48,254 nucleotides of DNA, from assembly GCA_947377865.1 (NCBI GenBank), contig CANCHK010000010.1, forward strand, positions 1 to 48,254, read 5' to 3'. This DNA comes from Opitutia bacterium (lineage in GTDB: Bacteria > Verrucomicrobiota > Verrucomicrobiia > Opitutales > UBA953). Positions 21,215 through 47,962 of this stretch are shown one piece after another. Under the pieces are notes generated by a model. It was not told the origin of the DNA. It ran no database searches and saw only the letters and a list, made by a program, of their open reading frames with translations. A program made the position numbers and the translations under genes. Each line of letters opens with the position of its first letter. Position 1 is the first letter of the stretch.

Positions 21215-21622
21215 ATGGGCGTCAAAATCTCCTGCGAATACCTCGGCGACCTCCGCGTGCGCGCGACCCATGGGCCTTCGGGCACCGTGCTGCATACTGA
21301 CGCCCCGGTCGATAACCATGGCAAGGGCGAGTCGTTCTCGCCGACCGACCTCACCGCGACCTCCCTCGCAGCCTGCATTATGACGATTCTTGGCATCCAG
21401 GCCAAAGGACTCGAATTGGATTTCCGTGGCCTACGCGTCGACATCGAGAAGCATATGACCGCCCAGCCTCCTCGCCGTATCTCGAAGCTCGAGGCCACAA
21501 TCCACATGCCCGCCGGCATCGCCGAGGATTTGCGAGATCGCCTCATCCGCGCCGCCAACGCTTGTCCGGTGAAACAATCTTTGCACCCAGACGTCGAGAT
21601 CGCGCTGGTGTGGATTTGGTAG
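21215..21622 (+). CDS. OsmC/Ohr-family redox protein
   Basis: A 135-residue OsmC-like thiol peroxidase, probably acting on organic hydroperoxides or as an uncharacterised YhfA-like member. The two redox cysteines are in LAACIMTILGIQAKG and NACPVKQSLHPDV. ATG 21215 is chosen because KISCEYLGDLRVRATHGPSG begins the family domain and the terminator lies just upstream. The stop codon TAG at 21620-21622 lies inside the GTAG head of a REP element (21619-21643), so the repeat provides the end of the gene. Confidence 0.88.
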   Translation: MGVKISCEYLGDLRVRATHGPSGTVLHTDAPVDNHGKGESFSPTDLTATSLAACIMTILGIQAKGLELDFRGLRVDIEKHMTAQPPRRISKLEATIHMPAGIAEDLRDRLIRAANACPVKQSLHPDVEIALVWIW

Positions 21623-21643
21623 GGATGCGATGACATCGCATCC
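21619..21643 (+). repeat. REP element, family B, supplies osmC stop
   Basis: GTAG followed by a perfect palindrome with arms GGATGCGAT and ATCGCATCC around loop GAC. Further exact copies are at 31478, 41655, 45445 and 46503. Confidence 0.85.
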
Positions 21644-21946
21644 GTTCGCTAGCGCCGTAAGAAGTCCATGAACTTAGCTAAGACCCGATAGGTGACGGGT
21701 GTCGGCCCCCGGGGAATCAGCCCTTCAGGAATCGGCATTTCAGCCCTCGGCAATCAGGATCCTGCGGCCGGCTCCCGAACGGCCGACGCCTGAACTCCCG
21801 GAGCCCGTACCCGTCACCTGAAATGTTTTCCTACCCCAACCCCTATCCCTACCCCTACCCCTTCACTCACCTTTGCACTGCCTCTCCCATGCCTCCGCTT
21901 CGCAGCAGCCCCCCTGCCAGCAGTTCCCCCGCGCGACTTCGTCGCG
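21644..21946. repeat. Repeat-filled spacer between osmC and the sugar transporter
   Basis: No gene seen. 21691-21818 is a block with inverted ends (GGTGACGGG at the left, CCCGTCACC at the right) related to 7738-7892. 21816-21876 (CACCTGAAATGTTTTCC, then a C-rich tract of CCCTA units, then CTCACCTTTGCAC) recurs at 46673-46733. Then follow GCTTCGCAGCAG and GCCAGCAGTTCCCCC modules. The spacer ends with a CGCGAC-TTC-GTCGCG hairpin touching the transporter stop. Confidence 0.7.
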
Positions 21947-21950
21947 CTAC
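21932..21950 (-). repeat. Short GTAG hairpin supplying the transporter stop
   Basis: Read on the minus strand, GTAG (21950-21947) is followed at once by CGCGAC, loop GAA, GTCGCG. The TAG is the stop codon of the FucP-like transporter. The arms are 6 bases, shorter than the 9-base arms of the main families. Confidence 0.65.
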
Positions 21951-23257
21951 CAGTGGCGCTTCTTATGCCCGACCATCGCGTAATAAGTCAGATAAAGATA
22001 ACAGGGTAGAATAATCCAGTAGGCTGAGCGCACGGAATGATGGTCCGCAATCCATCCATAGCCGAGCGGAAGAATCGCGTTACCGCAGAGTCCCATAATC
22101 ATCACCGAGGCACCGACTTTTGTGAAGCGCCCGAGTCCATCCAGCGCTAGCGGCCAGATGCCGGCCCAAGTCAGCGAGTTGGCGAAGCCGAGTAGCACCA
22201 CGAACCAGAGCGATATGTCGGTAGTATGCCCGCCGTAGGTGATGGTGCCAGGTGCGGTCACGATGAGGATGGAGAGTACGACGCCGACGCTCGTGCAGAA
22301 ACGCAGCATCGCCAGTTGCGAGATAAAGCGGGGAATCAGGAGGATGCCGGCGACGTAGCCGCAAATCATCGCCGTCAGCACGTAGGACGGGAAGGCTTTG
22401 GCTTCGAGTAAGGGCAGGCCCATCGACTGAGCGTAGGGGATGATGGTGTCGACGGAGATCACTGAAGCGCCGACGTGCAGGAAGATGCCGAAAGCGCCCA
22501 AGATGAGATGAGGGAACTGGAAGATGCCGGTCTTGTCGGCGTTAGCTTCGGCGACGTCCGCGCTCTCATGCTCGGTGTCGATTTCCGGTAAGGGCGACCA
22601 CCGCACAAGGAAGCCGAGCGCGAGTAAGGCCGTACCCACGCAAGCGTAGGGCATCACCACCCGACGAATCAGCTCGTCGAGCGCCGTCGCTTTCTCGGCC
22701 GGCGCCATCGTCGCGAGGCGCGCGAAGAGGTCAGTGTCGGTCACCTTGAATACCACCGCCGCGAAGACCAGCGGCGCGAGGATGCCGGCTCCTTTGTTGC
22801 AGATACCCATCACGCTGATGCGCCGTGCGGCGGTCTCCTTCGGGCCGAGGACGGTGATGTAGGGGTTGGCGGCCGTCTGCAGGATGGCTAGGCCCGCGCC
22901 CAGCGTGAATAGCCCGCCGAGGAAGACGCCGTAGGTCCGCGTTAGCGCCGCTGGCACGAAGAGGAAGGCGCCCGCGGCCATCACCCAGAAGCCAATCATC
23001 ATCCCGCGCTTGAAGCCCGTCCGCTTCAGCAGATGCGCGGCGGGCATCGAGAATACCAGGTAGGAGATATAGAACGCGAACGTGACCAGGTACGCCTCGA
23101 AGTGCGTCAGCTCGCAGCCGATCTTGAAATACGGGATGAGAATCGCGTTCACCCAGGATACGAAGCCGAAGATGAAGAACAGCACGGCGATGATCGCGAT
23201 CGAGACGCGGGTCTGCCCCGGGGTCAGGTCGCGGACATGGACGGGGGCGGAACGCAT
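21947..23257 (-). CDS. FucP-family sugar:proton symporter (MFS)
   Basis: A 436-residue inner-membrane transporter of the fucose/glucose/galactose permease branch of the MFS. The family signature LQTAANPYITVLGP is present, as is AHLLKRTGFKRGMMIG in the loop between segments 2 and 3. Twelve hydrophobic segments can be counted. The substrate is probably a neutral monosaccharide such as L-fucose, glucose or galactose, fitting a polysaccharide-degrading lifestyle. ATG 23257 is preceded by a divergent spacer. The stop codon is part of a GTAG hairpin. Confidence 0.9.
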   Translation of the reverse strand: MRSAPVHVRDLTPGQTRVSIAIIAVLFFIFGFVSWVNAILIPYFKIGCELTHFEAYLVTFAFYISYLVFSMPAAHLLKRTGFKRGMMIGFWVMAAGAFLFVPAALTRTYGVFLGGLFTLGAGLAILQTAANPYITVLGPKETAARRISVMGICNKGAGILAPLVFAAVVFKVTDTDLFARLATMAPAEKATALDELIRRVVMPYACVGTALLALGFLVRWSPLPEIDTEHESADVAEANADKTGIFQFPHLILGAFGIFLHVGASVISVDTIIPYAQSMGLPLLEAKAFPSYVLTAMICGYVAGILLIPRFISQLAMLRFCTSVGVVLSILIVTAPGTITYGGHTTDISLWFVVLLGFANSLTWAGIWPLALDGLGRFTKVGASVMIMGLCGNAILPLGYGWIADHHSVRSAYWIILPCYLYLTYYAMVGHKKRHW

Positions 23258-23300
23258 GCGCGGGGTTTCGTCAGCCTGCCCACCCCGCGGCTATGAGCAA

Positions 23301-23330
23301 TAAAAAGACCCCGGCGTTCCGGGGTCTTTT
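23301..23330 (-). terminator. Rho-independent terminator of the SlyD-like gene
   Basis: A 12-base perfect stem (AAAAGACCCCGG with CCGGGGTCTTTT) around loop CGTT, with A and T runs on opposite sides, so it can work in either direction. It sits 22 bases after the SlyD-like stop on the minus strand. Confidence 0.85.
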
Positions 23331-23351
23331 AGTTTGGCGATGAATCTGAGC

Positions 23352-24011
23352 TTAGGCCGAGCAACCGCAGCCGCCGGAACCACAGCCGCCTTGCTTCTGG
23401 GCGACGGGCTGTTCGGTGGAGCAGCAACCGCCGGCCGCCGCGCCTTCTTCGGAAGAGCAGCAGCCCCCTTCGGAGGCTTCGCCGCTGGAGCAGCAACCGC
23501 CTTCGGAGCTTTCGCCAGAGCCACAACCGCCGCCACCGCAGCATCCGCCCGACTGATGTGGGTGGCCGTGGGAGAGTTCGGTGAGTTCGGCCGCGCGGAC
23601 GGAGACGACCTTGATGTCGAAGTGCAGGGTCTTGCCGGCGAGCTCATGGTTGCCATCGAGGGTCACTTCTTCGCCTTCGATCTTCTTGATCGTGAGGACG
23701 CGCATGCCGAGGTTGGTCTCGGCGTGGAAGCGCATGCCAATCTGCGGAGTGTTCGCGCCAAACGCGGTGAGGGGCACCAGCTGGAGGAGCTTCTCGCTGT
23801 ATTCGCCGTAGCCGAGCTGCGGAGGGACGAGGACATTCTTGGTGTCGCCGGCGACGAGGCCTTCGACGCCTTGTTCGAGTCCAGGGATGATGTTCTGGGC
23901 GCCGTGGAGGTACTCCATCGGACCGCGATCGCCGGAGGCGTCGATGATGTTGCCCTGGTCGTCCTTCAGGGTGTATTCGATGGCGACGACGGTTTCTTTA
24001 GCTACGCGCAT
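23352..24011 (-). CDS. slyD: SlyD-like FKBP peptidyl-prolyl isomerase with metal-binding tail
   Basis: A 219-residue cytoplasmic isomerase and chaperone. The FKBP part (about 1-70) has VAIEYTLKDDQGNIIDAS and YLHGAQNIIPGLEQGVEGL. The inserted flap domain (about 75-125) is typical of SlyD. After residue 150 comes a tail with HGHPH and then repeated GGCC pairs (GGCCGGGGCGSG, GGCCSSGEASEGGCCSS), about 15 cysteines in 65 residues. SlyD tails bind nickel and other metals, usually with fewer cysteine pairs. Start at MRVAKETVVAIEY; upstream codons are outside the fold. Confidence 0.92.
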   Translation of the reverse strand: MRVAKETVVAIEYTLKDDQGNIIDASGDRGPMEYLHGAQNIIPGLEQGVEGLVAGDTKNVLVPPQLGYGEYSEKLLQLVPLTAFGANTPQIGMRFHAETNLGMRVLTIKKIEGEEVTLDGNHELAGKTLHFDIKVVSVRAAELTELSHGHPHQSGGCCGGGGCGSGESSEGGCCSSGEASEGGCCSSEEGAAAGGCCSTEQPVAQKQGGCGSGGCGCSA

Positions 24012-24120
24012 GGTGATTAGGACTATCGAACCTAGGGCGAAATCAGGCCGAGGCAAGGCGACAGGTATCTAAACCTTGACCGAACCAGCAGCGGCGGCTT
24101 CCCTAACCTTCCTGCTGTTT

Positions 24121-24196
24121 GGGGCCGTAGCTCAGTTGGTAGAGCGCGTCGTTCGCAATGACGAGGCCGTGAGTTCGAACCTCATCGGCTCCACCA
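24121..24196 (+). tRNA. tRNA-Ala (anticodon CGC)
   Basis: Acceptor GGGGCCG pairs with CGGCTCC (one G-U). The D arm is GCTC...GAGC, the anticodon loop TTCGCAA holds anticodon CGC, the T arm is GTGAGTTCGAACCTCAT, and discriminator A is followed by an encoded CCA. Confidence 0.93.
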
Positions 24197-24210
24197 GCAG
24201 GACTTGCCTT

Positions 24211-25551
24211 TTAGGCCGGCGTCACGCCTTCGTCGCCTGGTAGTTCCTTGGCCCCCTTGCGGGCACGCCTCACCTCGGGTAAGGACTCGTGGGCCTGGAT
24301 GTCGATGGTGGCCCCGTCCGCCAGCTGGCGCTCGGCCTTCATCTTCTCACCTTCGGTGATCAGTTTTTCGGCGTTATTGTATACGCGTGAGCGGAGCGTC
24401 TCCAGCGTCTGGTTATATTCTTTCACGGCCTTGTTGAGGCTGCCGCCTGCGTCGGCGAAGTGGTCGCTGGCGATGCGTACGCCATCGTGTAGCTTTTCCG
24501 CAAGCTCGATGACCTTCTCGGCGCGCTGCTCGACTTCCACGCGATCCCACGAGTGGGCGATGGTGCGGAGCACAGAGAGCAGGGTGGTTGGTGTCGCAAT
24601 GACGACCTTCTGGCCCCAGGCGTTCTCGATCAGGAGCGGGTCGACCTGGAGCGCCGTGCTGAATAGCGCCTCGCTCGGCAGGAAAAGCACGACGAATTCC
24701 GGGGACGGCTTGTATTGGTTCCAGTATTCCTTGGCGCCGAGTTTCTTGGCGTGCTCAGCGAGCTTGGCTGCGAAGTCTTGCAGCAGGCGGGTGCGCTCGG
24801 CTTCCGTCTCGGCCTGGCTGGCCTCGATGTAAGACTTGGTCGGCGCCTTGGCGTCGACGACAATCTTACGCCCGCCGGGAAGCGAGATCACCATGTCGGG
24901 CCGCAGATTGCCCTGTTCGGCGGCGGTGGAATTCTGCGTCTCGAAGTCGACATGCTCTAGCATGCCGGTGAGTTCGGCGACGCGGGAGAGTTGCAACTCA
25001 CCCCAGCTGCCCTGCTTATTGGTGGAAGTCATCGCCGACGCTAGCTTGCGTGCCTCCTCGGCGACTTTCTCCGATCGCTCATTGCTGGTCTTGAGCGAGC
25101 CTTTCAGCTCGTTATTGGTGCGGGTCAGCTCGTCGAGCTGGCTCTTGAACGGCGCGAATTTCTGCTCGGCCATGCCGATGAACTGTTCTCGGCTCTGGGT
25201 GAGTTGGCTCTGCGCGGCATTGGCGAAGGCCTCGCGCATCCGCTTTTCAAGTTCTCCGAAAGACGCCTTGGTCTCCTCGAGGCTACGTTGGGAAGCGGCT
25301 TTATCTGCTTCGGCCCGGGCGACGGCGGCCTCAGCTGTCGTGGCTCGGACGAGGGCTTTTTCGCGTTCAGCTTGGAGTGACGCGGTGTCCTGCGTGCGAC
25401 GGGTCTCCGTCGCGGCGACGAGCGTCTGCGCCGCGACAAGTTCCTGGCGTAAGGCCTGATCGGACTGGCCCGGCGGTTGGGAGCGGCGGCCAAGCAGGTA
25501 GCCGAGGTAGCCGAGCGCGAGGCCCAGCAGGGTGGGGACGATATAATCCAT
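24211..25551 (-). CDS. rmuC: RmuC-family DNA recombination protein
   Basis: A 446-residue protein of the RmuC family, which limits inversions at short inverted repeats. Residues 4-22 form a membrane anchor (IVPTLLGLALGYLGYLLG), residues about 35-170 a long coiled coil, and the nuclease-like core follows. Core motifs are NKQGSWGELQLSRVAELTGM, then RPDMVISLPGGRKIVVDAKAP, then VLFLPSEALFSTAL and TPTTLLSVLRTIAHSW. Start at MDYIVPTL (25551); the arginine-rich upstream extension overlaps the next gene's end. A role tied to inverted repeats is notable in a palindrome-rich genome. Confidence 0.93.
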   Translation of the reverse strand: MDYIVPTLLGLALGYLGYLLGRRSQPPGQSDQALRQELVAAQTLVAATETRRTQDTASLQAEREKALVRATTAEAAVARAEADKAASQRSLEETKASFGELEKRMREAFANAAQSQLTQSREQFIGMAEQKFAPFKSQLDELTRTNNELKGSLKTSNERSEKVAEEARKLASAMTSTNKQGSWGELQLSRVAELTGMLEHVDFETQNSTAAEQGNLRPDMVISLPGGRKIVVDAKAPTKSYIEASQAETEAERTRLLQDFAAKLAEHAKKLGAKEYWNQYKPSPEFVVLFLPSEALFSTALQVDPLLIENAWGQKVVIATPTTLLSVLRTIAHSWDRVEVEQRAEKVIELAEKLHDGVRIASDHFADAGGSLNKAVKEYNQTLETLRSRVYNNAEKLITEGEKMKAERQLADGATIDIQAHESLPEVRRARKGAKELPGDEGVTPA

Positions 25552-25601
25552 CTGGATGCTTATGAGAAAGACACTCTGCCCCGCCGCGGGGCTTCCGCAA
25601 C

Positions 25602-26141
25602 TTATCCCCGCGGGTCGCCTTCGATGGCGATGGCGTTGCCGAGCTCCCATGCGGCCTCGTACGCGGCCACGTAGTCTGGCGATGACCATGCGGGCGAAGC
25701 GGGCTCTCCGCCGAGCCCGGCGATGAAGCCGTAGCGGATGCCGTGTGAGATACGACGCCGACGTGGATTCTCCCTTTGGTTACTCCATTCGAGGGCGCGG
25801 GTAAACGTATCGTCCGGAATCGGGGAGACCACCGATCGGCCGACCTGCCAGGCGACGACGCCAGAGTGGTCAAGGTCGCTGACCTTGCGGCCGAGTACCA
25901 AGGAGGAGGGCACGGGGCCGTTCTGCCGGCCAGCTTCAATCTGGGCCTGGATTTGTAACCTCAAGGCGACCCGCCAACGCTCCTCCTGGGTAAGCAGGCC
26001 GTAGTCGTAATCTGGGTCGTCCGCCGCAGTGTCTCGCAGCTCGGTCTTGGCGTAACGCCTCCATTTACCCAACCAGACGTTCCATTCGTCCGTTCCTCGG
26101 AGGGGGGGCTTGCCGAGCCAGTCGGGGAGGTCTTCGCGCAT
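25602..26141 (-). CDS. Hypothetical protein, 179 residues
   Basis: I do not recognise a family. The product is hydrophilic and rich in Trp and Arg (MREDLPDWLGKPPLRGTDEWNVWLGKWRRYAKTEL). A helical middle region (LTQEERWRVALRLQIQAQIEAGR) is followed by a C-terminal Trp/Tyr-containing part (SPDYVAAYEAAWELGNAIAIEGDPRG). No signal peptide or membrane segment. It lies 50 bases upstream of rmuC on the same strand. Coding is supported by a clean start and stop and balanced composition. Confidence 0.6.
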   Translation of the reverse strand: MREDLPDWLGKPPLRGTDEWNVWLGKWRRYAKTELRDTAADDPDYDYGLLTQEERWRVALRLQIQAQIEAGRQNGPVPSSLVLGRKVSDLDHSGVVAWQVGRSVVSPIPDDTFTRALEWSNQRENPRRRRISHGIRYGFIAGLGGEPASPAWSSPDYVAAYEAAWELGNAIAIEGDPRG

Positions 26142-28493: not shown

Positions 28494-28494
28494 T

Positions 28495-31440: not shown

Positions 31441-31589
31441 GTAGGGACAGCACCACGTGCTGTCCTCTGCATTTCAGGTAGGGATGCGATGACATCGCAT
31501 CCGCTGTCTTTCTGCCTCTGGTAGGGACGCGTCGGCGACGCGTCCGCCTCGACGCTAACCCCTCGGTCGCGACACCGTCGCGCCCCTAC
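31441..31589. repeat. REP cluster after gspF: families A, B, C and D
   Basis: Four GTAG-headed 25-base elements. A is at 31441-31465 (arm GGACAGCAC, loop CAC), B at 31478-31502, and C at 31521-31545 (arm GGACGCGTC, loop GGC). D lies inverted at 31565-31589 (minus strand: arm GGGCGCGAC, loop GGT, one mismatch). C and D face each other, so the pair runs from GTAG to CTAC. Confidence 0.85.
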
Positions 31590-37992: not shown

Positions 37993-40299
37993 ATGCAGCT
38001 CCCGGCCCCTCGCGCAGCTTGGCCCACCCCGATCATCGCAATGTTCGGGGCGCTCGTCTGTGCCTCGGCCTGCGCTCAGGATTTCCAGAAGGATATTAAG
38101 CCCTTCCTTAGTAAATATTGCTACGAGTGCCACGACGCCGAACTGGCCAAGGGCCATCTCAACCTCGAGGAATTCAAGGACGACGCGCGCTTCTTCCGCG
38201 ATCAGCGCATCTGGCGCGAGGTGGTCACGCAGGTCACCTCTGGCGAAATGCCCCCGGTCAAGGTGAAGGTGCGTCCGACGCCCGCCGAAATCGAAGGCCT
38301 CCAGACATCGACCCATAAGCTCCTCGCCGCCGCTATCGCCAAAGCAAAGCCGGATCCGGGCGACGTGACAATCCGCCGCCTCAACCGGATGGAGTTCAAT
38401 AACACGATTCGCGATCTCTGCTACCTTGACGAGAATTTCTCCGCAGACTTCCCCGCCGATGACACGGGCTACGGCTTCGACAATATCGGCGACGTGCTGA
38501 CGTTCTCCCCAGTTCACCTCGAGCGCTTCCTTGCGGTCGGCGAGCAGATTGCCGCCAAGGCGATGCCGACCACGCCCAACGAACTCGACGGCACAGGTCT
38601 CGCGATGATTGAGATGCTCCCGAAGGGACGCCGCGTCGAGCAGCAGCGCTACTTCGAGCCAGCGCCATATCTCACCGGTCCGATGGAAGCGCCGCGCGAC
38701 GGCGATTACATCATCTCGGTCAACCTCCGCTCCACGGGCGCGTCTGGCGATCCCACCGCAAAGGTCGCCTTCCTCGTCGATGGCACGGAAGTCGGCCAGT
38801 ACGCCTTCAAGGCGATCAAGAAGTCCGAGGTCGCGACAGCCAAGGTCACCCTTAAGGCCGGCAAGCATGAGTTCACGCTGAAGTGGCTCAACCCTCCCGC
38901 TAAAATCCCCGGCAACGCCCGCTCTCTCTCCGGCCTCCGCCTTCGCCTGCTCGGCCCCGCCGACACGCGTACCGAATTTCAGCGCCGCCTCGCCCTCGCG
39001 ATCGGCGACAAGACCGGCGAGCCTCGCGCGAAGCTCGTTGTGAATTGGTTTGTGAGCCGTGCCTTCCGCCGTCTGGCCACGAGCGCCGAAATCGCCCGCT
39101 ATTCCAAGGTGTTCCTTGACGGCGAAAAAGCCGGCGGGACATGGGAAGCCGGCACACAGGCGATGATTGCGGTGGTGCTTGCTTCCCCAAAATTCATCTT
39201 CCGCGCAGAACAAGACGAGAAGCCGACCGAACGCGACGCCCACCCGGTCGGTGAATTTGCCTTGGCCTCACGCCTCAGCTACTTCCTCTGGGGCTCGATG
39301 CCTGATGAAGAGCTCTTCCAGCTCGCCTACGCCGGTAAGCTTTCGGCGAACCTCGAGGCCCAGGCCCGTCGCCTGCTCAAGGACCCGCGCGCGCAATACC
39401 TGACGCAGGGCTTCGGCATCCAGTGGCTCCAGTTGCGCCAGCTTTCAACAGTTTCACCCGACCCGACGCTCTACCCGAAGTTCAGCGAGGCGGTCCGCGG
39501 CTCGATGATGAAGGAGACCGAACTTTTCTTTGCTGAGGTCGTTCGCGAAGACCGCGACGTGCTCGACTTCCTCGACGGCGACTTCACCTACGTCGACCGC
39601 ACCCTCGCGGCGTTCTACGGCATCAACGCCGACTTCCCGCGCGCCCGCGATAAGGGCGAATTCGTGCGCGTGACTCTCCCAAAGGGCGAACGCGGCGGCA
39701 TCCTCACGCACGCCTCGATCCTCACGGCGACTTCTAACCCGACGCGCACGTCCCCCGTGAAGCGCGGTAAGTGGATCCTCGAGCAGATCCTCGGCACACC
39801 TCCGCCGCCCGCGCCTCCTTCCGTCCCCACGCTCGATGGTCAGCAGCTCAAGGGTAACCTGCGCCAGCGCATGGAACAGCACCGCCGCGATCCGGCCTGC
39901 TCCTCCTGTCATTCACGCATGGACGCCATCGGCTTCGCGTTCGAGAAGTTCGACGGGGTGGGGCTACTGCGTACGTCGGACGAAGGCTCTCCGATCGACC
40001 CCTCCGGCAAGCTCTCCGATGGACGCACGTTCTCTGGCGCTGGCCAGTTGAAGCAGCTGCTGCGTAAGGATAGTGAGAAATTCGTCCGCAATCTTTCCAC
40101 GAAGCTCCTCACCTACGGCCTGGGCCGTGGACTCGACTACTATGACGGCCCTGCGGTCGACAAGATTACGGAATCGGCCTTGAAGTCCGGCAACCGCTTC
40201 TCCTCCGTCGTCCTGGGGGTCGTCCTGAGCGACCCTTTCCGCCTCCGCCGCGGAACATCGCAGGTTGAAGCGGGGTCTGAATCTCCTAAGAAGAAATAA
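37993..40299 (+). CDS. Secreted DUF1592-type cytochrome c protein
   Basis: A 768-residue exported protein of the Planctomycete/Verrucomicrobia cytochrome-like class. A signal peptide (about 1-28) is followed by the first heme motif CYECH (Cys43, Cys46, His47) in a PSCyt1-like segment. Then come DUF1587 (TIRRLNRMEFNNTIRDL), a carbohydrate-binding-like beta region (about 230-315), DUF1595/DUF1592 (FRRLATSAEIARYSKVF, ASRLSYFLWGSMPDEELF) and DUF1588 (RGGILTHASILTATSNPTRTSPVKRGKWILEQILG). A second heme motif CSSCH (636-640) is followed by DUF1585 (SDGRTFSGAGQLKQLL). Likely acts in the periplasm with the DUF1552 partner 7 bases downstream. Physiological role of the family is not settled. Confidence 0.92.
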   Translation: MQLPAPRAAWPTPIIAMFGALVCASACAQDFQKDIKPFLSKYCYECHDAELAKGHLNLEEFKDDARFFRDQRIWREVVTQVTSGEMPPVKVKVRPTPAEIEGLQTSTHKLLAAAIAKAKPDPGDVTIRRLNRMEFNNTIRDLCYLDENFSADFPADDTGYGFDNIGDVLTFSPVHLERFLAVGEQIAAKAMPTTPNELDGTGLAMIEMLPKGRRVEQQRYFEPAPYLTGPMEAPRDGDYIISVNLRSTGASGDPTAKVAFLVDGTEVGQYAFKAIKKSEVATAKVTLKAGKHEFTLKWLNPPAKIPGNARSLSGLRLRLLGPADTRTEFQRRLALAIGDKTGEPRAKLVVNWFVSRAFRRLATSAEIARYSKVFLDGEKAGGTWEAGTQAMIAVVLASPKFIFRAEQDEKPTERDAHPVGEFALASRLSYFLWGSMPDEELFQLAYAGKLSANLEAQARRLLKDPRAQYLTQGFGIQWLQLRQLSTVSPDPTLYPKFSEAVRGSMMKETELFFAEVVREDRDVLDFLDGDFTYVDRTLAAFYGINADFPRARDKGEFVRVTLPKGERGGILTHASILTATSNPTRTSPVKRGKWILEQILGTPPPPAPPSVPTLDGQQLKGNLRQRMEQHRRDPACSSCHSRMDAIGFAFEKFDGVGLLRTSDEGSPIDPSGKLSDGRTFSGAGQLKQLLRKDSEKFVRNLSTKLLTYGLGRGLDYYDGPAVDKITESALKSGNRFSSVVLGVVLSDPFRLRRGTSQVEAGSESPKKK

Positions 40300-40306
40300 C
40301 CCCGCC

Positions 40307-41653
40307 ATGAAGACCGACCTCATCCCCCGCCGCACGGTGCTCAAAGGCCTCGGCGCTGTCATGGCCTTACCGTGGCTCGAGGCGATGGGCGTCCAAACCG
40401 GGTGGGCTGCGGGCAATACTCCCGTGAAGAACGCCGCGCCAAACCGTATGGCGTTCCTCTACGTCCCCAACGGCGTGAATATGGATGGTTGGCGCGTCGG
40501 CGCCGAAGGCGCGCTGCCTACCAAGCTGCCTCCGATCCTCGCTCCGCTCGCTGGCGTGAGGAATCATTTCTCCATCCTCACGGGGCTCGCGGCCGATAAG
40601 GCCCGCTCTCACGGCGACGGCGGCGGCGACCACGCACGCGCAATGTCTGCTTTCCTCACGGGCGCCCAGCCCCGCAAGACCGACGGCGCCAACATCCGCG
40701 CCGGCGTCTCGGCCGACCAGCTCGCCGCCTCACGCATCGGCGACCGCACGCGCCTCGCCTCCCTCGAGATCGGCACCGAAGCCAGCAAGCTCGCCGGCGG
40801 CTGCGACTCGGGCTACTCCTGCATCTACCAGTCTAACATCTCCTGGCGCTCGGCCACGCAGCCGATGCCGAAGGAAGTGAACCCGAAGCTGATTTTCGAA
40901 CGGCTCTTTGGCTCGGGCTCCGACGCCGAACGCAAGCAGCGCGACGCTTCCCGTAAGTCGGTCCTCGACATGGTCCGCGAGGATTTCCGCGAACTCAACG
41001 GACGCCTCGGCGCCGACGACCAGCGCAAGCTCGATGAATATTTCACTGCGGTCCGCGAGATGGAACTGCGCATCCAGAAGTCCGGCACGGAAGGACAGAC
41101 GAAGCTCCCCGTCGGCGCGCTGCCCCCAAAGGGCATCCCTGAAAGCTACGCCGAACACCTCCGCCTCCTGGCCGACCTGACGGTGCTCGCTTTCCAGACC
41201 GACACCACCCGCGTCGCGACGTTCGTCCTCGCCAACGAAGGCAGCAACCGCTCCTACCCGTTCATCGGCGTGCGCGACGGCCACCACAGCATCTCCCACC
41301 ACGGCCACGACCCGGTGAAGTTGGCGAAGATCCAAGACATCAACGTCTTCCACTCGACACACCTGGCCTACCTCCTCGAACGCCTGAAGTCCGTGAAGGA
41401 AGGCGACGGCAACCTGCTCGACCACTCGATGATCGTCTACGGCTCCGGCAACGGCGACGGCGACCGTCACAACCACGACGACCTTCCGATCCTCCTGGCC
41501 GGCGGTGGCTGCGGTACGCTCAAGCAGGGCCGCCACATCGTCTACCAGAAGGAGACCCCGATCAACAACCTCTGGGTCAGCATGCTCAACCGCATGGACA
41601 TCCGCGACGTCCAGCTCGGCGACAGCACCGGCGAACTCAAGAAGCTCTCTTAA
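40307..41653 (+). CDS. Tat-exported DUF1552 protein
   Basis: A 448-residue DUF1552 protein, the regular partner of DUF1592 proteins in this phylum. A twin-arginine signal is clear (IPRRTVLKGLGAVMALPWLEAMG). The body contains RMAFLYVPNGVNMDGW, then HARAMSAFLTGAQPRK and SIDQ-like GVSADQLAA. The C-terminal half resembles DUF1501/sulfatase-like folds (SYPFIGVRDGHHSISHHGHD, MIVYGSGNGDGDRHNHDDLPILLAGG), with His/Asp metal-site candidates. Start at MKTDLIPRRT (40307). The stop is followed after one base by a GTAG REP element. Confidence 0.9.
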   Translation: MKTDLIPRRTVLKGLGAVMALPWLEAMGVQTGWAAGNTPVKNAAPNRMAFLYVPNGVNMDGWRVGAEGALPTKLPPILAPLAGVRNHFSILTGLAADKARSHGDGGGDHARAMSAFLTGAQPRKTDGANIRAGVSADQLAASRIGDRTRLASLEIGTEASKLAGGCDSGYSCIYQSNISWRSATQPMPKEVNPKLIFERLFGSGSDAERKQRDASRKSVLDMVREDFRELNGRLGADDQRKLDEYFTAVREMELRIQKSGTEGQTKLPVGALPPKGIPESYAEHLRLLADLTVLAFQTDTTRVATFVLANEGSNRSYPFIGVRDGHHSISHHGHDPVKLAKIQDINVFHSTHLAYLLERLKSVKEGDGNLLDHSMIVYGSGNGDGDRHNHDDLPILLAGGGCGTLKQGRHIVYQKETPINNLWVSMLNRMDIRDVQLGDSTGELKKLS

Positions 41654-42090
41654 GGTAGGGATGCGATGACATCGCATCCGCCGCATCTCTGCCGTCCCCA
41701 ACCGCTAACCGCCAACACCTCGCGACGCCGTCGCGCCGGTAGGGACGGCTCTCCGAGCCGTCCGCCTGTATCGCGTTCGCCGCAGGGCGAACCCAGGTAG
41801 GGGCACGATTCATCGTGCACTCCCATCTTGGAGGGCGCGGCGAAGCCAAGCCCCTACCTCCGGCCGCCCTGCGGCGGCCCCATATACTCGATACTCTATA
41901 CTCCATACTCTGGTTAAGGTTCCGGGCGCGGGCTTCGCCCCCGTGTCAACGTGCCCACGTGCCCCCTCGCGGCGCCTTGCGCCGCGCAACCTTAACCCTC
42001 CATTAAGCCCTGCATTTTCCTGAAAATTTACTCCCTTACCTGAAGAAACTTCTGCTCCCACTTGGCGTTCCACTTTCGTACTCTCACCCC
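41654..42090. repeat. Repeat-filled spacer with REP families B, E, F
   Basis: No gene seen. B element 41655-41679. A CGCGAC-GCC-GTCGCG hairpin at 41721-41735 stands just before E (41739-41763, arm GGACGGCTC, loop TCC). A GTTCGCC hairpin is at 41775-41792. F (41797-41821, arm GGGCACGAT) faces F' on the minus strand (41833-41857, two mismatches). GGCCGCC/GGCGGCC hairpin at about 41862-41879. A CATGCCCCCTCG-type hairpin (GCGGCGC-CTT-GCGCCGC) lies at 41959-41985. The last 70 bases hold the promoter area of the phosphatase. Confidence 0.75.
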
Positions 42091-43710
42091 ATGCACCCCG
42101 AAGATCCGTCCGTCGGAAAACCCAACCCGTTCTATAAGCCTGCCTTCGGCCTGGTGGTACGCCGCCAGTTCATCGGCATCATGGCCGCGACCTTCGGCTG
42201 GACGCTCCTGCCTTCCGTCTCCGCGCAGGAGAAGAAGGGGAAGGGCGGCGGCAAAGGCGGCAAGGGTGGTGGCGATGACTCCTCCAAGGCCCGTGGCCCG
42301 GTCTTTCAAGGTGAGTACGTCCTCCCGGAATCCCTCGCGGAATTTTCCAAGCTCTCCTTGATCTTTGGCCGCGCGACCGACAAGGCCATCACGGCCAGCC
42401 TCGTCCCCGCTACGACGATGGAAGCGTTCCTCGAAATCGGCACGGCCAAGGGCAAATACACCCGCAAGACGTCGGTGGCCCAGCTGCCCTCGGGTAAGGC
42501 CACGGAAATCGTCATCGATGGGCTGACCCCGAGCACGGAATACTTCTACCGTCTCAATTACCGTAAGCCAGGCGCCGGCAACTACACCCAGCGCGCCGAG
42601 GCCCGTTTCGCCACGCAGAAGGCCCCGGGCTCGTCCTTCGTCTTTACAATCCAGGGCGACTCCCACCCAGAGCGCCCCCAGTCCAGCCACCCCGACCTCT
42701 ATTCCCGCACGCTCGCGACCGCCGCCGCCGATAAGCCCGATTTCCATATCTGCATCGGCGACGACTTCTCGATCGAACGCGTCCGCACGATCAACGACGC
42801 CAACTGCCAGATTCCCTACCTCCTGCAGCGTCCGTTCCTCGGTCTCGTGGGCTCCGTCGGCCAGGTCTTCCTGATGAACGGCAACCACGAACAGGGCTCG
42901 CTCTTCAACTTCTCGCAGAAGGACGAGCGCCGCGACGTCGCCATCGGCGTGCAGAAGGCCCGCAACTCGCTCTACCCGCTCCCAGGCAACGAAGGCATCT
43001 ACACCGGCCACGCCGAGCCGTTCAAGGACATCGGCCCGCTGAAGAGCTACTGCTCCTGGACCTGGGGTGACGCGCTCTTCGTCCTCCTCGATAATTACTG
43101 GCACTCGCCGGCGCTCGTCGACAGCGGCTTCGGCGGCAAGGGCGGCAAGGGCGAGAAGGGTGGCGACGACAAGAAAAACCGCGACTGGTGGGGCCTCACC
43201 ATCGGCGACGCCCAGTACAAGTGGCTCAAGCACACGCTCGAGACCAGCAAGGCGAAGCACAAGTTCGTCTTCGCCCACCACGTCCTCGGCTCCGGCCGCG
43301 GCGGCGTCGACGAGGCCGACCTCTACGAATGGGGTGGCCAGGGCAAGAAGGGCGAAGGCTCTTTCAAGGAAAAGCGCCCAGGCTGGGAACTCCCAATCCA
43401 CCAGTTGATGGTGAAGCACAAGGTCAGCGTCTTCTTCCAGGGCCACGACCACCTCTACTGCCAGCAGGAGAAGGACGGCATCATCTACCAGGAACTCCCG
43501 ATGCCTTCCGACCACGGCTACATCGCCTACAACGAAGACCGCTACGCCTCCGGCAAGAAACTCCCCAGCGCCGGCTATATGCGCGTCACCGTCACGCCCG
43601 CCTCCGCCAAGGTCGAATACGTCCGCTGCTTCCTCCCCAAGGACGAAACCAAGGATACCAAGCACGGCATGATCGCCCACTCTTACGAAGTAAAAGCCCG
43701 CCCCGCCTAA
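42091..43710 (+). CDS. Tat-exported metallophosphatase with fibronectin-like N-domain
   Basis: A 539-residue exported metallophosphoesterase. A twin-arginine-like signal is seen (VVRRQFIGIMAATFGWTLLPSVSA). It is followed by a Gly-Lys low-complexity stretch (about 49-62) and a fibronectin-like domain ending GLTPSTEYFYRLNY. The calcineurin-like domain carries metal motifs FTIQGDSH, CIGDDF, MNGNHEQ, FAHHVLGSG and FFQGHDHLYC. This order fits PhoD/purple acid phosphatase relatives. A second Gly-Lys insert (GGKGGKGEKGGDDKK) interrupts the catalytic domain at about residue 350, a loop not usual in the family. Confidence 0.88.
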   Translation: MHPEDPSVGKPNPFYKPAFGLVVRRQFIGIMAATFGWTLLPSVSAQEKKGKGGGKGGKGGGDDSSKARGPVFQGEYVLPESLAEFSKLSLIFGRATDKAITASLVPATTMEAFLEIGTAKGKYTRKTSVAQLPSGKATEIVIDGLTPSTEYFYRLNYRKPGAGNYTQRAEARFATQKAPGSSFVFTIQGDSHPERPQSSHPDLYSRTLATAAADKPDFHICIGDDFSIERVRTINDANCQIPYLLQRPFLGLVGSVGQVFLMNGNHEQGSLFNFSQKDERRDVAIGVQKARNSLYPLPGNEGIYTGHAEPFKDIGPLKSYCSWTWGDALFVLLDNYWHSPALVDSGFGGKGGKGEKGGDDKKNRDWWGLTIGDAQYKWLKHTLETSKAKHKFVFAHHVLGSGRGGVDEADLYEWGGQGKKGEGSFKEKRPGWELPIHQLMVKHKVSVFFQGHDHLYCQQEKDGIIYQELPMPSDHGYIAYNEDRYASGKKLPSAGYMRVTVTPASAKVEYVRCFLPKDETKDTKHGMIAHSYEVKARPA

Positions 43711-43927
43711 TCCTGCCTCTAGGTAGGGACAGCACCACGTGCTGTCCTCCGCATCTTAGGTAGGGTCGGGACCGCGTCACGACATAGTCTGTCTCTATAG
43801 AATGATGCCTCTGCTTCGCAGCAGTTCACCCATCTGACCACCACCTCCCCCAACCCCTTAACTCACCTTTGCACTTTTGCACGCGGCTCCGCCGCATTTG
43901 CACCCTTGCACCTCACTTAACTCCCCC
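43711..43927. repeat. Repeat-filled spacer with REP families A and H
   Basis: A element at 43723-43747. A degenerate GTAG element at 43760-43784 (arm GGTCGGGAC, loop CGC, right arm two mismatches). Then a GCTTCGCAGCAG module, a C-rich stretch, and TTTGCAC boxes flanking GCGGC-TCC-GCCGC (43863-43905). The repeat material runs on into the start of the sulfatase frame. Confidence 0.75.
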
Positions 43928-45406
43928 ATGTCCCCTCGCCCCCTCGCCCCCATGCCCCCTCGCGACTCCGCCGCGCGCCCCACTTTTGCACAGGCGCTTC
44001 GCGCCGGTTTGCACTTTTGCACCTTTGCACTGTTCTCCCTCGCCGCTTCCGCGGCGTCGCCCGCCCGCCAGCCCAACATCGTCCTCATCCTCATCGACGA
44101 CATGGGCTATCGCGACACGGGTTTCGTCGGGAACAAGTACATCAGCACCCCGAACATCGATAAGATCGCCAAGTCCGGCGCCGTCTTCTCGCAGTGCTAC
44201 GCCAGCGCCCCGAACTGCGCGCCGACCCGCGCGTGTCTCCTCACGGGCCAATACACCCCGCGCCATGGCGTCTACACCGTCGTCGACGACCGTTACGCCC
44301 CGGGCCAGCCGCACATGAAGGTGATGTCCACCAAAGGCAACGACGAGCTGCCTGAGAAGACCAAGACCGTCGCCGACGTCCTGAAGTCGGGCGGTTACTC
44401 CACCGCGCTCATCGGGATGTGGAACATCGGCCGCGGCCGCAATGGCACCCCGGGTTCGCCCACCGGTCGCGGCTTCGATGTCTATAAGCGTCCCGACGAC
44501 GTAAACTTCGAGAAGGATGCCTACATGGACGGCAAGGGCCGCTACCTCTCCGACGCGCTCTGCGACGAAGCCCTGTCCTGGATCGATAAGAACAAGACCA
44601 AGCCCTTCTTCCTCTACTACGCCGAACACTCCGTCCACGAGCCGTTCGACCCCAAGCCCGCGCTCGTCGCGAAGTACAAGGCCAAGACGCCCACCGGCCT
44701 CGATAAAGGCATCACGCCTGAATACGCCGCCACCGTGGAAGCGGTCGACACCAGCATCGGCCGCATCATGGCCAAGCTCGAAGCTGATGGCCTGACCAAG
44801 GACACCCTCGTCATCTTCACTTCCGACAACGGCGGCCTCCCTTACGTCGTCAACCCGCTCCGTGGCAGCAAGGGGCTCCTCTACGAAGGCGGCATCCGCG
44901 TGCCGGGCGCCGTCTCCTGGCCCGGCGTGATCCCCGCTGGCAAGACCTTCGACGAACCCGTTGCCAGCATGGACTTCATGCCGACCATCCTCGAAGCCGC
45001 CGGCCTCCCGCTCCCGAAGGATCAGCCCACCGATGGCATCAGCCTCATGAAGCAGCTCAAGACTGGCGCCGCGCTGAATCGTAACGCCATCTACTGGCAC
45101 TTCCCCTGTTACATCGGCAAGGGCGAGCCCATGAGCCTCCTGCGCGCTGGCGACTATAAGCTCATCCAGAAATTCGCCGGGCCCACCTTCGAGCTCTACA
45201 ACGTGAAAAAGGATCCCAGCGAAGAGAAGGACCTCGCAAAGGCTGAGCCCGCCAAGGTCGAGGAACTCAAGAAACTCCTCCTCGCCTGGCAGAAGGACAC
45301 CGGCGCCTTCCTCGCGGACAAGAAGAACGAAGCCTACGACCCCAACGCCAAGGAACAACGCGGCGGCGGCAAAGGCGGCCAAGGCGGCGGCAAAAAGAAG
45401 AAGTAA
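43928..45406 (+). CDS. Secreted sulfatase (type I, formylglycine)
   Basis: A 492-residue arylsulfatase-family enzyme removing sulfate esters, probably from sulfated polysaccharides. Metal motif NIVLILIDDMGYRD, the modification site NCAPTRACLLTGQ (Cys at 44216-44218 to be converted to formylglycine), YAEHSVHEPFD, FTSDNGG and the end TFELYNVKKDPSEEKDLA are all present. Start is uncertain: ATG 43928 or 43952, or TTG 43877. All give a hydrophobic segment GLHFCTFALFSLAASAA acting as signal peptide, encoded by TTTTGCAC repeat units. The last 15 residues are RGGGKGGQGGGKKKK, similar to tracts in neighbouring secreted proteins. Confidence 0.92.
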   Translation: MSPRPLAPMPPRDSAARPTFAQALRAGLHFCTFALFSLAASAASPARQPNIVLILIDDMGYRDTGFVGNKYISTPNIDKIAKSGAVFSQCYASAPNCAPTRACLLTGQYTPRHGVYTVVDDRYAPGQPHMKVMSTKGNDELPEKTKTVADVLKSGGYSTALIGMWNIGRGRNGTPGSPTGRGFDVYKRPDDVNFEKDAYMDGKGRYLSDALCDEALSWIDKNKTKPFFLYYAEHSVHEPFDPKPALVAKYKAKTPTGLDKGITPEYAATVEAVDTSIGRIMAKLEADGLTKDTLVIFTSDNGGLPYVVNPLRGSKGLLYEGGIRVPGAVSWPGVIPAGKTFDEPVASMDFMPTILEAAGLPLPKDQPTDGISLMKQLKTGAALNRNAIYWHFPCYIGKGEPMSLLRAGDYKLIQKFAGPTFELYNVKKDPSEEKDLAKAEPAKVEELKKLLLAWQKDTGAFLADKKNEAYDPNAKEQRGGGKGGQGGGKKKK

Positions 45407-45408
45407 AG

Positions 45409-45594
45409 GCAGGGACAGCACCACGTGCTGTCCTCTGTATCTAGGTAGGGATGCGATGACATCGCATCCGCCCTATCCCAGGTAGGGGCAGCACCGCGTG
45501 CTGCCCTAGCTCCCCTGTCTCAAGGTAGGGACGCGTCGGCGACGCGTCCGCCTCGACCCTTACCCCCTCGGTCGCGACACCGTCGCGCCCCTAC
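45409..45594. repeat. REP cluster after the sulfatase: A, B, G, C, D
   Basis: Five elements in a row. A at 45409-45433 (head GCAG instead of GTAG), B at 45445-45469, G at 45482-45506 (arm GGGCAGCAC, loop CGC), C at 45525-45549, and D inverted at 45570-45594. The A element starts two bases after the sulfatase stop. C and D again face each other over 70 bases. Confidence 0.88.
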
Positions 45595-45802
45595 CTCCTG
45601 CTGCCACCCGCCACCCGAAGCTCTGCCTCTGCCCCTTGCCCACGTGTCACCTTGCCCGCATGCCCCCTCGTGGCCTCCGGCCACGCTTGCTTCGCAGCAT
45701 GCCAGCCTGCCAGCAGATCCCCCCGCGGCTCCGCCGCGCCTGCTTTGCAGCAGTTCACCATGCCAGCAGTTCCCCCACGAATGAGCGAGCGCAGCGCGCC
45801 GC
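45595..45802. repeat. Spacer with hairpin modules before yoeB
   Basis: No gene seen. A CATGCCCCCTCG hairpin (CGTGGCC-TCC-GGCCACG, 45669-45685), GCCAGCAG modules near 45705 and 45760, a CCGCGGC-TCC-GCCGCG hairpin near 45723-45738, and finally a long stem (45777-45786 with 45801-45810) that includes the yoeB stop. Confidence 0.65.
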
Positions 45803-46066
45803 TCATTCGTAATGCGTCCACATCCGGATCACCTTCACCGTCTTCTCCTTCGCATACACCTGATAGACGAGCCGATGCTGCAGGTTGATCCGACGCGAGT
45901 AGGCGCCGGCCAGGTCGCCGACCAGCGCTTTGACGGGTGGGGGATTATGGAAAGGGTTCTTGGCGAGCACCGCGAGCAGCGTCTCGATCTTCGGGCGCAG
46001 CCCCGCCTTGGACGCCTTCAAGGCGTCCTTCTGGGCCTGCTTCGTATAGACCAGCTCCCAGCTCAC
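45803..46066 (-). CDS. yoeB: YoeB/Txe-family toxin (mRNA interferase)
   Basis: An 87-residue RelE-superfamily toxin that cleaves mRNA at the ribosome. The start MSWELVYTKQAQKDALKASKAGLRPKI and the end YSRRINLQHRLVYQVYAKEKTVKVIRMWTHYE match Txe/YoeB, including RRIN..HRLVY and the C-terminal HY. Its ATG overlaps the antitoxin stop by four bases, the standard antitoxin-first order. The last codons take part in a 10-base perfect stem. Confidence 0.93.
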   Translation of the reverse strand: MSWELVYTKQAQKDALKASKAGLRPKIETLLAVLAKNPFHNPPPVKALVGDLAGAYSRRINLQHRLVYQVYAKEKTVKVIRMWTHYE

Positions 46067-46299
46067 CAGCGGAGCTTCTTGGCGGATTTCTTCAGCGGCT
46101 CCTTCATGCCGCTGCGAATCGAGGCACCCACGCCTGGGATCGCCGATAGGTGGAGCGTCTCTTGGATGTTCGCCCAGTCGGCCTCGCTCACCAGCACCGC
46201 ATTGCCGCGTTTGCCCGTGATCTGGATCGGCTCGTGGACGGAGGCCTCGATCAGCTTATAGAGCTGCGCGCGGGCGCGGGTGGCGGAAATCGTCGTCAT
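46063..46299 (-). CDS. YefM/Phd-family antitoxin
   Basis: A 78-residue antitoxin that binds the toxin and represses its own operon. MTTISATRARAQLYKLIEASVHEPIQITGKRGNAVLVSEADW is the Phd/YefM DNA-binding domain; the basic C-terminal part wraps the toxin. Start at ATG 46299, right after the operator-like palindrome. The upstream extension would cross that palindrome and is rejected. Confidence 0.93.
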   Translation of the reverse strand: MTTISATRARAQLYKLIEASVHEPIQITGKRGNAVLVSEADWANIQETLHLSAIPGVGASIRSGMKEPLKKSAKKLRW

Positions 46300-46309
46300 G
46301 GCCACAAAG

Positions 46310-46325
46310 GTACGCAAAAGCGTAC
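46310..46325. promoter_or_regulatory. Operator-like palindrome of the toxin-antitoxin operon
   Basis: GTACGC and GCGTAC, perfect 6-base arms around AAAA, 10 bases upstream of the antitoxin start. YefM/Phd proteins bind such palindromes, so autoregulation here is likely. Confidence 0.6.
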
Positions 46326-46444
46326 GCATGGCAAGGGCGTCTTCGACGCCCGTTGATCCGTTGATTGGTTGAATGGTTGCTTTCATAGTCGGCACCCCCC
46401 GACGCTCCTCATCTCAGTCGCTCCCCTCAACCCCGGGAACCCCT

Positions 46445-46496
46445 CAGCATGGGGTCTGACTTCGTCATGTCACATGACGTGTCTGACCTCATGCTG
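46445..46496. repeat. 52-bp palindromic repeat, copy 1
   Basis: Outer arms CAGCATGGGGTCTGAC and GTCTGACCTCATGCTG match at 14 of 16 positions. The centre holds its own hairpin (GTCATGT/ACATGAC). A second copy with the same outer arms but a different centre is at 47701-47753. Both are preceded by the same CCTCAACCCCGGGAACCCC. Confidence 0.8.
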
Positions 46497-46502
46497 GCCT
46501 AG

Positions 46503-46656
46503 GTAGGGATGCGATGACATCGCATCCGCTGTATCTCAGGTAGGGGCAGCACCGCGTGCTGCCCTAGCCGCCAACACCTGCCTCGGGTAGGGACGCGTCG
46601 GCGACGCGTCCGCCTAAACCCTTATCCCCTCGGTCGCGACACCGTCGCGCCCCTAC
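46503..46656. repeat. REP cluster left of DUF3800: B, G, C, D
   Basis: B at 46503-46527, G at 46540-46564, C at 46587-46611, D inverted at 46632-46656. The C-D unit (46587-46657) is identical over 71 bases to 47879-47949 on the other side of the DUF3800 gene. Confidence 0.88.
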
Positions 46657-46991
46657 CTCTCCCGCCACCCGCCACCTGAAATGTTTTCCTACCCCAACCC
46701 CAACCCCTACCCCTTAACTCACCTTTGCACGTTCGCACGCGGCTCCGCCGCATTTGCACCTTTGCACTGCCTCTAATCAGTCTGCCTCGTGCCGCTCCCA
46801 CCCGCTTACCGCTAACCGCCACCCCCTCGCGACTTCGTCGCGTTGGTAGGGACGGCTCTCCGAGCCGTCCGCCCTACTTGTGTCTTGCCTCCAGCCCGCC
46901 GTGCATGAAAATTGATTACGAGTCCGAGAGCGCGCCAGTCGCGTGAGTAGCACTCCCTAGGGGTCGCGGAAACGCGGCCCCTCCCTATTTA
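46657..46991. repeat. Repeat-filled spacer downstream of DUF3800
   Basis: No gene seen. 46673-46733 repeats the 21816-21876 block (CACCTGAAATGTTTTCC plus C-rich tract plus TTTGCAC). TTTGCAC boxes flank GCGGC-TCC-GCCGC near 46738-46750. A CGCGAC-TTC-GTCGCG hairpin (46828-46842) precedes E at 46846-46870. The last 100 bases are less repetitive. Confidence 0.7.
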
Positions 46992-47651
46992 TCAAGCCAA
47001 CCAGCGGGCGGGTGGGGATATCTTATCTAGTTCGGCAAAAACTTCCTCCGGCCGCTTGTCCCTGAATAAAGCATTTGGATGCAGGCGTTGGCGTTGTAAG
47101 TAGGCGATCAAGTCGACGGCCTGTAGAAAATAGGAATGTCGGGAATCCCGGTGGAAGGGATCCTCAATGATTAAGGCCTGCCGTGGATGACTGGAGCGAA
47201 ACTCCATGATGGCCTGTTTGATGGCTGCGGCTTCACCAACGTCCGCGATGAGGAGCATTGGGCGGTCCGAAGTTGCGCTGAGATCAGCCGCTAGATCTTT
47301 CCAACAGGCCTGCAATGGCTCTGACTCGCTATGTTTCAGGCAAGCCACCGAGCAAGAACTGAGACCTTCGATTTGTCGAAGCTCTCGCAGCAACCATAGC
47401 GCTATGCGCAGGCGCTGGCGGGGTTCCAGTCCGAGAAATCGCTTTGCGCCGCCAAGGAATTCGGCTGCATGGATTTCCGCCGAGAGTTTCAGGCCTAATT
47501 GGTCGCGCATGCGTTGCCGGAACGACACCAAGCGTGCTTGAGCTTCATGCCAATGCTCAGATGGGATTTTCAGTCCGGATAAGATATATGATGCCGTCGG
47601 GGAATTGATTGCACCCGGATCCCCGCTCTCGTCGATATAGACCAATTCCAT
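46992..47651 (-). CDS. DUF3800 protein, likely horizontally acquired
   Basis: A 219-residue DUF3800 protein, a family with an RNase H-like fold often found near mobile and defence genes. The signature LVYIDESGDPG opens the protein and SYFLQAVDLIAYLQRQ is the conserved C-terminal motif; acidic residues in both could bind metal. Base composition is visibly less GC-rich than its neighbours, and codon choice differs (many A/T-ending codons). It is the only gene here with a purine-rich AGGTGGGGG directly before ATG. Nearly the same repeat array flanks it on both sides. Function unknown. Confidence 0.85.
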   Translation of the reverse strand: MELVYIDESGDPGAINSPTASYILSGLKIPSEHWHEAQARLVSFRQRMRDQLGLKLSAEIHAAEFLGGAKRFLGLEPRQRLRIALWLLRELRQIEGLSSCSVACLKHSESEPLQACWKDLAADLSATSDRPMLLIADVGEAAAIKQAIMEFRSSHPRQALIIEDPFHRDSRHSYFLQAVDLIAYLQRQRLHPNALFRDKRPEEVFAELDKISPPARWLA

Positions 47652-47700
47652 CCCCCACCTATCACCCGCACCCCTCGCCCCCTCAACCCCGGGAACCCCC

Positions 47701-47753
47701 CAGCATGGGGTCTGACTTCGTTCGGAATGCTGAACGTGTCTGACCTCATGCTG
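47701..47753. repeat. 52-bp palindromic repeat, copy 2
   Basis: Same outer arms as 46445-46496, but the centre is GTTCGG/CTGAAC instead of GTCATGT/ACATGAC, so the inner stem changed while staying palindromic. Confidence 0.78.
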
Positions 47754-47758
47754 ACCCA

Positions 47759-47962
47759 GGTCGGCGACGCGTCCGCTGTATCTCAGGTAGGGGCAGCACC
47801 GCGTGCTGCCCTAGCCGCCGCTTTGTGTTCCCAACCGCCAACCGCTAACCGCTAATACCTCGCGACTCCGTCGCACGGGTAGGGACGCGTCGGCGACGCG
47901 TCCGCCTAAACCCTTATCCCCTCGGTCGCGACACCGTCGCGCCCCTACCTCGCGCCCCTACC
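47759..47962. repeat. REP cluster right of DUF3800: truncated C, G, C, D
   Basis: A C element lacking its head and left arm (47759-47774), G at 47787-47811, a CGCGAC-TCC-GTCGCA hairpin at about 47860-47874, C at 47879-47903, and D inverted at 47924-47948. The last 13 bases of D are then duplicated once (to 47962). Confidence 0.85.

Follow-up and report, generated by a model that had tools for sequence, protein, structure and literature searches.

The window analysed here is a stretch of 48,254 nucleotides from an Opitutia bacterium (Verrucomicrobiota; Opitutales; UBA953), contig CANCHK010000010.1 of assembly GCA_947377865.1, which comprises 2.32 Mb in 128 contigs and is 75.66% complete. Its spacers carry short hairpins that begin with the tetranucleotide GTAG. 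These elements are repetitive extragenic palindromic sequences (REPs) of the GTAG type, a kind that has already been described and occurs also in Opitutus terrae (PMC3733652). In the window we list 24 of them, weaker and variant copies included (the GCAG-headed copy at 45409, H at 43760, the element at 41833 and F at 41797), and they belong to eight families, A to H, which are written below as stem.loop. The most upstream element is a copy of family B (GGATGCGAT.GAC) on the forward strand (21619–21643). The first cluster holds A (GGACAGCAC.CAC; 31441–31465) and B (31478–31502), both forward, followed by C (GGACGCGTC.GGC; 31521–31545, forward) and D (GGGCGCGAC.GGT; 31565–31589, reverse) as the left and right halves of a facing pair. 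Directly 3' of the stop codon of the open reading frame 40265–41653 the second cluster starts with B (41655–41679) and continues with E (GGACGGCTC.TCC; 41739–41763) and F (GGGCACGA-TTCA-TCGTGCAC; 41797–41820), all forward, and with the facing partner of F on the reverse strand (GGGCTTGGC.TTC, 7/9 pairs; 41833–41857). The third cluster consists of A (43723–43747) and H (GGTCGGGAC.CGC.GTCACGACA; 43760–43784), both forward, and the fourth of the GCAG-headed copy of A (45409–45433), B (45445–45469) and G (GGGCAGCAC.CGC; 45482–45506), all forward, and a C/D pair (45525–45549, forward; 45570–45594, reverse). Towards the contig end follow B (46503–46527) and G (46540–46564), both forward, a C/D pair (46587–46611, forward; 46632–46656, reverse), E (46846–46870, forward), G (47787–47811, forward) and a last C/D pair (47879–47903, forward; 47924–47948, reverse). 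C and D thus always face each other in the window (4/4 pairs). As had been stated in an earlier, sequence-only reading of this DNA, the stems of A, B, C, E and G are fully paired; D pairs at 8/9 and H at 7/9 positions. Six window elements were folded as single-stranded DNA and all six formed the hairpin, D with an internal mismatch. The mismatches of H are identical in several genomes and beside its own transposase gene, and the imperfect stem may therefore be its preferred form.

In the range 21619–47948 we counted 20 hairpins with GTAG followed by a 9-3-9 architecture and at least 8/9 Watson-Crick pairs (22 at a threshold of at least 7/9), and none in any of 20 dinucleotide-shuffled copies of the window, which bears out the earlier count of at least 20. 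The excess holds beyond the window: contigs C1–C4 (364,129 bases), with loops of three or four bases allowed, contain 124 GTAG hairpins versus 0, 2 and 0 in three shuffles, which corresponds to a high copy number. A stricter pattern matched 75 times in the whole assembly and not at all as a reversed control, and the broad pattern GTAGGGN{17,18}CC gave 381 matches versus 181 for its reversed control, a background so high that only ratios are used for this pattern. Among 726 hairpins of such size in the sample and the window GTAG is the head of 144 and the runner-up GAAC of 29, and the GTAG/GTGG tetranucleotide at the hairpin foot that marks GTAG REPs is present. A fixed 9-3-9 geometry, as originally proposed, had to be rejected, as 33 of the 124 sampled hairpins have a 4-base loop (91 have three bases) and F is an imperfect 8-4-8 hairpin. 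The stems, proposed to vary freely, do so only in part: they start with GG and end with CC in 112/124 hairpins, and in the window each stem goes with one loop; genome-wide some stems are found with more than one.

The earlier reading saw no gene for a REP-associated tyrosine transposase (RAYT) in the window, and indeed the contig of the window contains neither any of the four Y1_Tnp matches of the own genome nor any match there to a RAYT profile (see below). One of the four (C63:6801–7238) is a RAYT, the only one of the GTAG type, and is flanked on both sides by facing pairs of GGTCAGCAC.TGC and GGTCGGCAC.TGC. This TGC family is absent from the window, and it is the only family of the own genome whose REP flanks its RAYT. 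Using a profile of 21 RAYTs we obtained matches in 35 of the 55 genomes of the genus (E ≤ 0.001). Strong matches amount to 54 rows, a part of which are fragments at contig ends, and are spread over 28 genomes, namely the own one and 27 of its 54 congeners. The motifs HUH, WQ..FDHR and Y...NP.RA are invariant across the 21 aligned RAYTs, and the nearest solved structure is that of E. coli TnpA-REP (4er8, E 1.1e-15). For NF047646 (cut-off 80) one of four RAYTs scored above the cut-off (81.8) and three below (75.9, 72.8 and 60.4), and for Pfam Y1_Tnp (cut-off 23) L055 scored above (26.2) and L062 below (22.3). A TGC-family RAYT with an internal stop (L057 in G007:C73) still has its own REPs on its flanks. 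In G027, from another family of the order, the RAYT-like L069 and L078 go with 8-5-8 GTAG hairpins (GGCCTCCG-CTTGC and GGGTCGGG-TTCAC).

The flanks of the RAYT genes connect the enzymes to the families. We compiled 150 RAYT loci with 102 distinct proteins, of which 96 score at least 100 bits; weaker matches, proteins outside 120–220 amino acids (120–260 for a second set in the tree, see below), REPs not reading as 21 or 22 bases and four second-set proteins identical to the first set were left out. A REP is found within 200 bp on at least one side of 86 of the 96 RAYTs and on both sides of 67, and in 60 of these 67 the two sides have an identical loop (mean 6.5 and maximum 16 in permutations). 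From the remaining seven, four are one loop base apart and three are a 3- versus 4-base reading of TAC. Cognate RAYTs of the window families are found in congeners: L060, L166 and L169–L172 for A, L181 and L183 for B, L064/L177 for C/D (with C and D nearby), L190 and L204 for E, L061, L072, L165, L167, L168 and L188 for G, and L175 and L194 for H, which have the same 25 bases on both sides. The match for F is approximate: L206, a partial RAYT at the start of a contig, has a facing pair resembling that of F on its downstream side, and stems related to the partner of F (41833) are carried, again approximately, by L203 and L186. The flank REPs are inverted beside the A and G RAYTs, and some flanks are direct. 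On the RAYT tree (91 rows, 81 labelled) the loop label changes 21 times versus a mean of 54.9 and a minimum of 49 in 200 shuffles. Judged from their sequences, RAYT and REP co-evolve in this genus, and the pairing of clade to family is in line with the literature, in which every tnpA-REP is said to possess a REP family of its own (PMC6006769; PMC3733652; PMC2817692).

These data support the earlier assignment of the GTAG palindromes to REPs of the RAYT type, since the same element flanks RAYT genes, but not the idea that came with it, namely that one enzyme reads GTAG plus hairpin shape. A single RAYT for which GTAG and any short hairpin suffice, and which moves every family, would fit the one GTAG-RAYT beside many families in the own assembly as well as the one head and similar geometry throughout, and published group 3 RAYTs do tolerate many stem changes (PMC8266576). 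Yet the pairing and its congruence with the tree, the near constancy of the loop bases within the flanks of one RAYT and the published loop mutations that abolish or cut cleavage (PMC8266576) all speak against it, and as each RAYT stands beside its own family we regard a single shape-reading enzyme as most improbable. A weaker form of the idea survives, as part of the stem seems to be little read by a RAYT: the flanks of one RAYT often hold two differing stems with a common loop.

In order to see which bases carry the family identity, we compared 135 pairs of distinct REPs from the flanks of the same RAYT with 2,167 pairs between RAYTs; the pairs are not independent, and as those of unequal loop length were dropped the comparison favours loop constancy. 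Within flanks, 4% of the pairs differ at loop base 1 and 9% at loop base 2, compared to 62% and 60% between RAYTs. Stem base 8 behaves similarly (10% versus 73%), base 9 differs in 19% versus 36%, and stem bases 3–7 differ in 22–42% within flanks versus 58–71% between RAYTs. To the question of shape versus sequence the answer therefore appears to be that identity lies largely in the loop and the top pair, the remaining stem being freer. The loop constancy agrees with the in vitro results for the Stenotrophomonas maltophilia REPtron Sm, in which cleavage depended decisively on the first loop base and was improved by changes at three positions of the stem bottom (PMC8266576). At loop base 2, C is absent from a RAYT clade whose 32 rows all come from this genus (0 of 30 labelled rows) and is present in 50 of 51 of the others.

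Two residues of the RAYTs follow these bases. In L055 numbering they are 53 and 92, corresponding to V42 and K82 of the E. coli protein as read off the HMMER alignment, and for E. coli K82 a contact to the bulged C27 has been reported. A basic residue 92 is found in 55 first-set RAYTs, 53 of which have a stem base 8 other than C, and a non-basic one in 26, of which 24 have C. This rule had been put on record ahead of the second set, which consists of 60 chosen places plus further loci among the matches listed (88 loci from the phylum, 47 usable for residue 92), and the prediction agreed in 40 of 47 cases (Fisher p 4.8e-4, rows not independent). In the first set, Arg occupies position 53 in 26 of 29 RAYTs whose loop base 1 is G and in 1 of 52 with other bases, and in the second set in 18 of 18 G-loop RAYTs and 0 of 28 others (46/46 agree); column 53 was the best one for loop base 1 already in the first set, and the wording 'Arg means G' was chosen after both. 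The three G-loop exceptions (L177, L181 and L183) have Leu and are members of the 32-row clade, in which the reading must differ. Dependent evolution was preferred over independent evolution for both residue-base pairs (likelihood ratios 54.5 and 33.1, 4 degrees of freedom); with the pairs swapped it was not (3.1 and 1.4). A search for RAYTs on plasmids gave one weak match, on a Chlorohelix plasmid, and the residue-base data thus stay within the phylum. In the openly accessible literature searched, subscription papers and preprints being outside this scope, we found no residue-base code for RAYTs.

From these correlations we lean slightly towards a joint picture in which residue 53 would select loop base 1 and residue 92 stem base 8, and in which one genus would have abandoned 'C at loop base 2' and diversified to give roughly a dozen REP families (12, counted on the RAYT tree). 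At residue 53, Arg would go with G at loop base 1, and Tyr (in one clade Leu) with T and C; at residue 92, Arg or Lys would go with T at stem base 8, any of Arg, His and Lys with A, and Glu, Gly, Ala or Gln with C. Both residues may contact these bases. This picture is weakened by the 7 of 47 cases in which the residue-92 rule fails, by 3 of 24 control columns (loop base 1 only) that exceed a likelihood ratio of 9.5, the largest reaching 16.2, and by supported independent pairs too few for a significant sign test. In a ranking by nearest-pair differences columns 53 and 92 were not singled out (19th and 26th of 142), which we read as fast columns differing everywhere.

The elements also differ in number and place between genomes. 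Genomes with more RAYTs show a higher enrichment of the broad pattern relative to the reversed control (Spearman 0.63, p 2.6e-7, 55 genomes, relatedness and completeness being ignored). In 400 kb of G051, which has RAYTs for GAC, CCCT and GCC, GAC is the commonest loop away from the RAYTs (13/70), followed by GCC and CGC (8 each) and CAC (6). In 200 kb of G049, with one RAYT for TACC, 9 of 12 hairpins are TACC, and G019, in which no RAYT was found, has 7 hairpins in 200 kb. 3' of orthologous T2SSF genes REPs are found at 9 of 12 loci (own included; two end at a contig edge) in differing combinations, and the other three have no REPs and also a different downstream sequence; 3' of the sulfatase gene REPs are present at 4 of 7 loci, one REP-free locus having only 19 bases downstream. 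A clean empty site was not among the T2SSF and sulfatase orthologous loci compared.

In the window itself, the REP clusters are placed after gene ends. The four clusters at 31441, 41655, 43723 and 45409 begin 2–28 bases 3' of a stop codon, and the genes preceding them match the T2SSF, DUF1552 (HXXSHH), metallophosphatase and sulfatase families. This position, together with the stable folds (computed as DNA), would suit transcription terminators or mRNA 3' structures that are not mobile. The RAYT pairing, the facing pairs, the differing arrays at orthologous sites and the GTAG head argue against this explanation and we hold it to be quite unlikely, even if a role as RNA hairpin is compatible with mobility and the two can coexist. 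Rfam at gathering cut-offs detected two tRNAs only in the window. A DUF3800 gene (46992–47651, reverse) sits between REP clusters close to the contig end. C-rich spacers form further intergenic repeats beside REP clusters (21809–21856 and 46667–46714), and the motif CACCTTTGCAC, next to small palindromes rich in G and C (GCGGCTCCGCCGC), occurs near REP clusters at about 21868, 31741, 43864 and 46720.

Very probably, the hairpins are non-autonomous REPs, single or facing (REP doublets forming hairpins, REPINs, or dimers), whose spread and maintenance are due to a swarm of paralogous RAYTs, each acting mainly on its own family. RAYTs are taken here as TnpA-REP proteins, Y1 nucleases of the HUH type, with many paralogues in the genus. 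By analogy with other RAYTs, each would cleave the single-stranded REP and transfer it, with GTAG as the shared 5' guide, which would explain why GTAG plus a short hairpin is common to all families. Much of the family identity would reside in loop bases 1 and 2 and stem base 8, and stem bases 3–7 would drift with compensating changes. The many REP families would follow from the many related RAYTs of the genus, each beside its own family.

Several observations weigh against this explanation. The own assembly has one GTAG-RAYT but many families, some of them uniform. Five RAYT-free genomes are enriched more than 1.2-fold, G055 among them being the top of the genus (2.36). In G051 the loops CGC and CAC, which have no own RAYT there, match or nearly match GCC, and CCCT, whose RAYT is present, was found once. 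In G049 eight of the nine TACC elements are found no more than 1 kb from the RAYT, with three hairpins of any kind elsewhere, so that dispersed REPs are few in this genome and dispersal by its RAYT is not shown. No recognised REP lies within 200 bp on at least one side of 29 of the 96 RAYTs, which is partly due to contig ends and to imperfect families not caught by the scan. Stem labels (bases 3–9) also track the tree, with 14–20 changes versus shuffled means of 28–41, and GGTCAGCAC.TGC and GGGCGCCAC.TGC, which have the same loop and base 8, go with different RAYT clades.

The uniform families without their RAYT, such as the AT.GAC elements of the own genome (14 of 17 have the GGATGCGAT stem), can be accounted for in several ways. 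The RAYTs for families A to H may be missing from the incomplete assembly or may have been lost. Missing sequence is the simplest answer, as some congener RAYTs are located on very short contigs (G002:C236 with 3,197 bases and G048:C77 with 3,970); the alternatives are recent loss and cross-action of sister RAYTs. In the latter case sister RAYTs would share substrates to a limited extent, and the C63 RAYT (GGTCRGCAC.TGC) would also serve A and G, which have stem bases 4–9 (CAGCAC) in common with its family, whose RAYTs group with those of A and G on the tree, and which are present in the own genome while their own RAYTs are not in the assembly. However, the three families go with separate RAYT clades of their own (loop CAC, CGC or TGC) and the stem is not common to B, C/D and E, and we therefore consider cross-action rather doubtful. 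The 127 RAYT-REP pairs represent a natural data set in which specificity might be predicted from the protein sequence, and swaps of one or two residues would then be a way to examine how a RAYT picks its REP.

In comparison to known systems, the elements resemble the GTAG REPs that Di Nocera et al. described in 2013 (PMC3733652), with several families in Opitutus terrae, in the GTAG head, stems of mostly 6–9 bp, loops of 2–3 bases in many families, several families per genome, homo- and heterodimers, a location mostly downstream of coding regions and repeat-specific REPtrons; they come from another genome, and the comparison was one of described features. With the group 3 TnpA-REP system of the S. 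maltophilia REPtron Sm (PMC8266576) they share the short perfect palindrome with a 3-base loop, the decisive first loop base and the tolerant stem bottom, but here many loops are found, and the 32-row clade without C at loop base 2 is confined to this genus in the first set. Facing REP pairs with an adjoining RAYT are also described for REPINs (PMC3116915). In contrast to those, the two halves here often differ in stem and have most of the loop in common, as in C/D or GGTCAGCAC/GGTCGGCAC, and such heterodimers are already known (PMC3733652).

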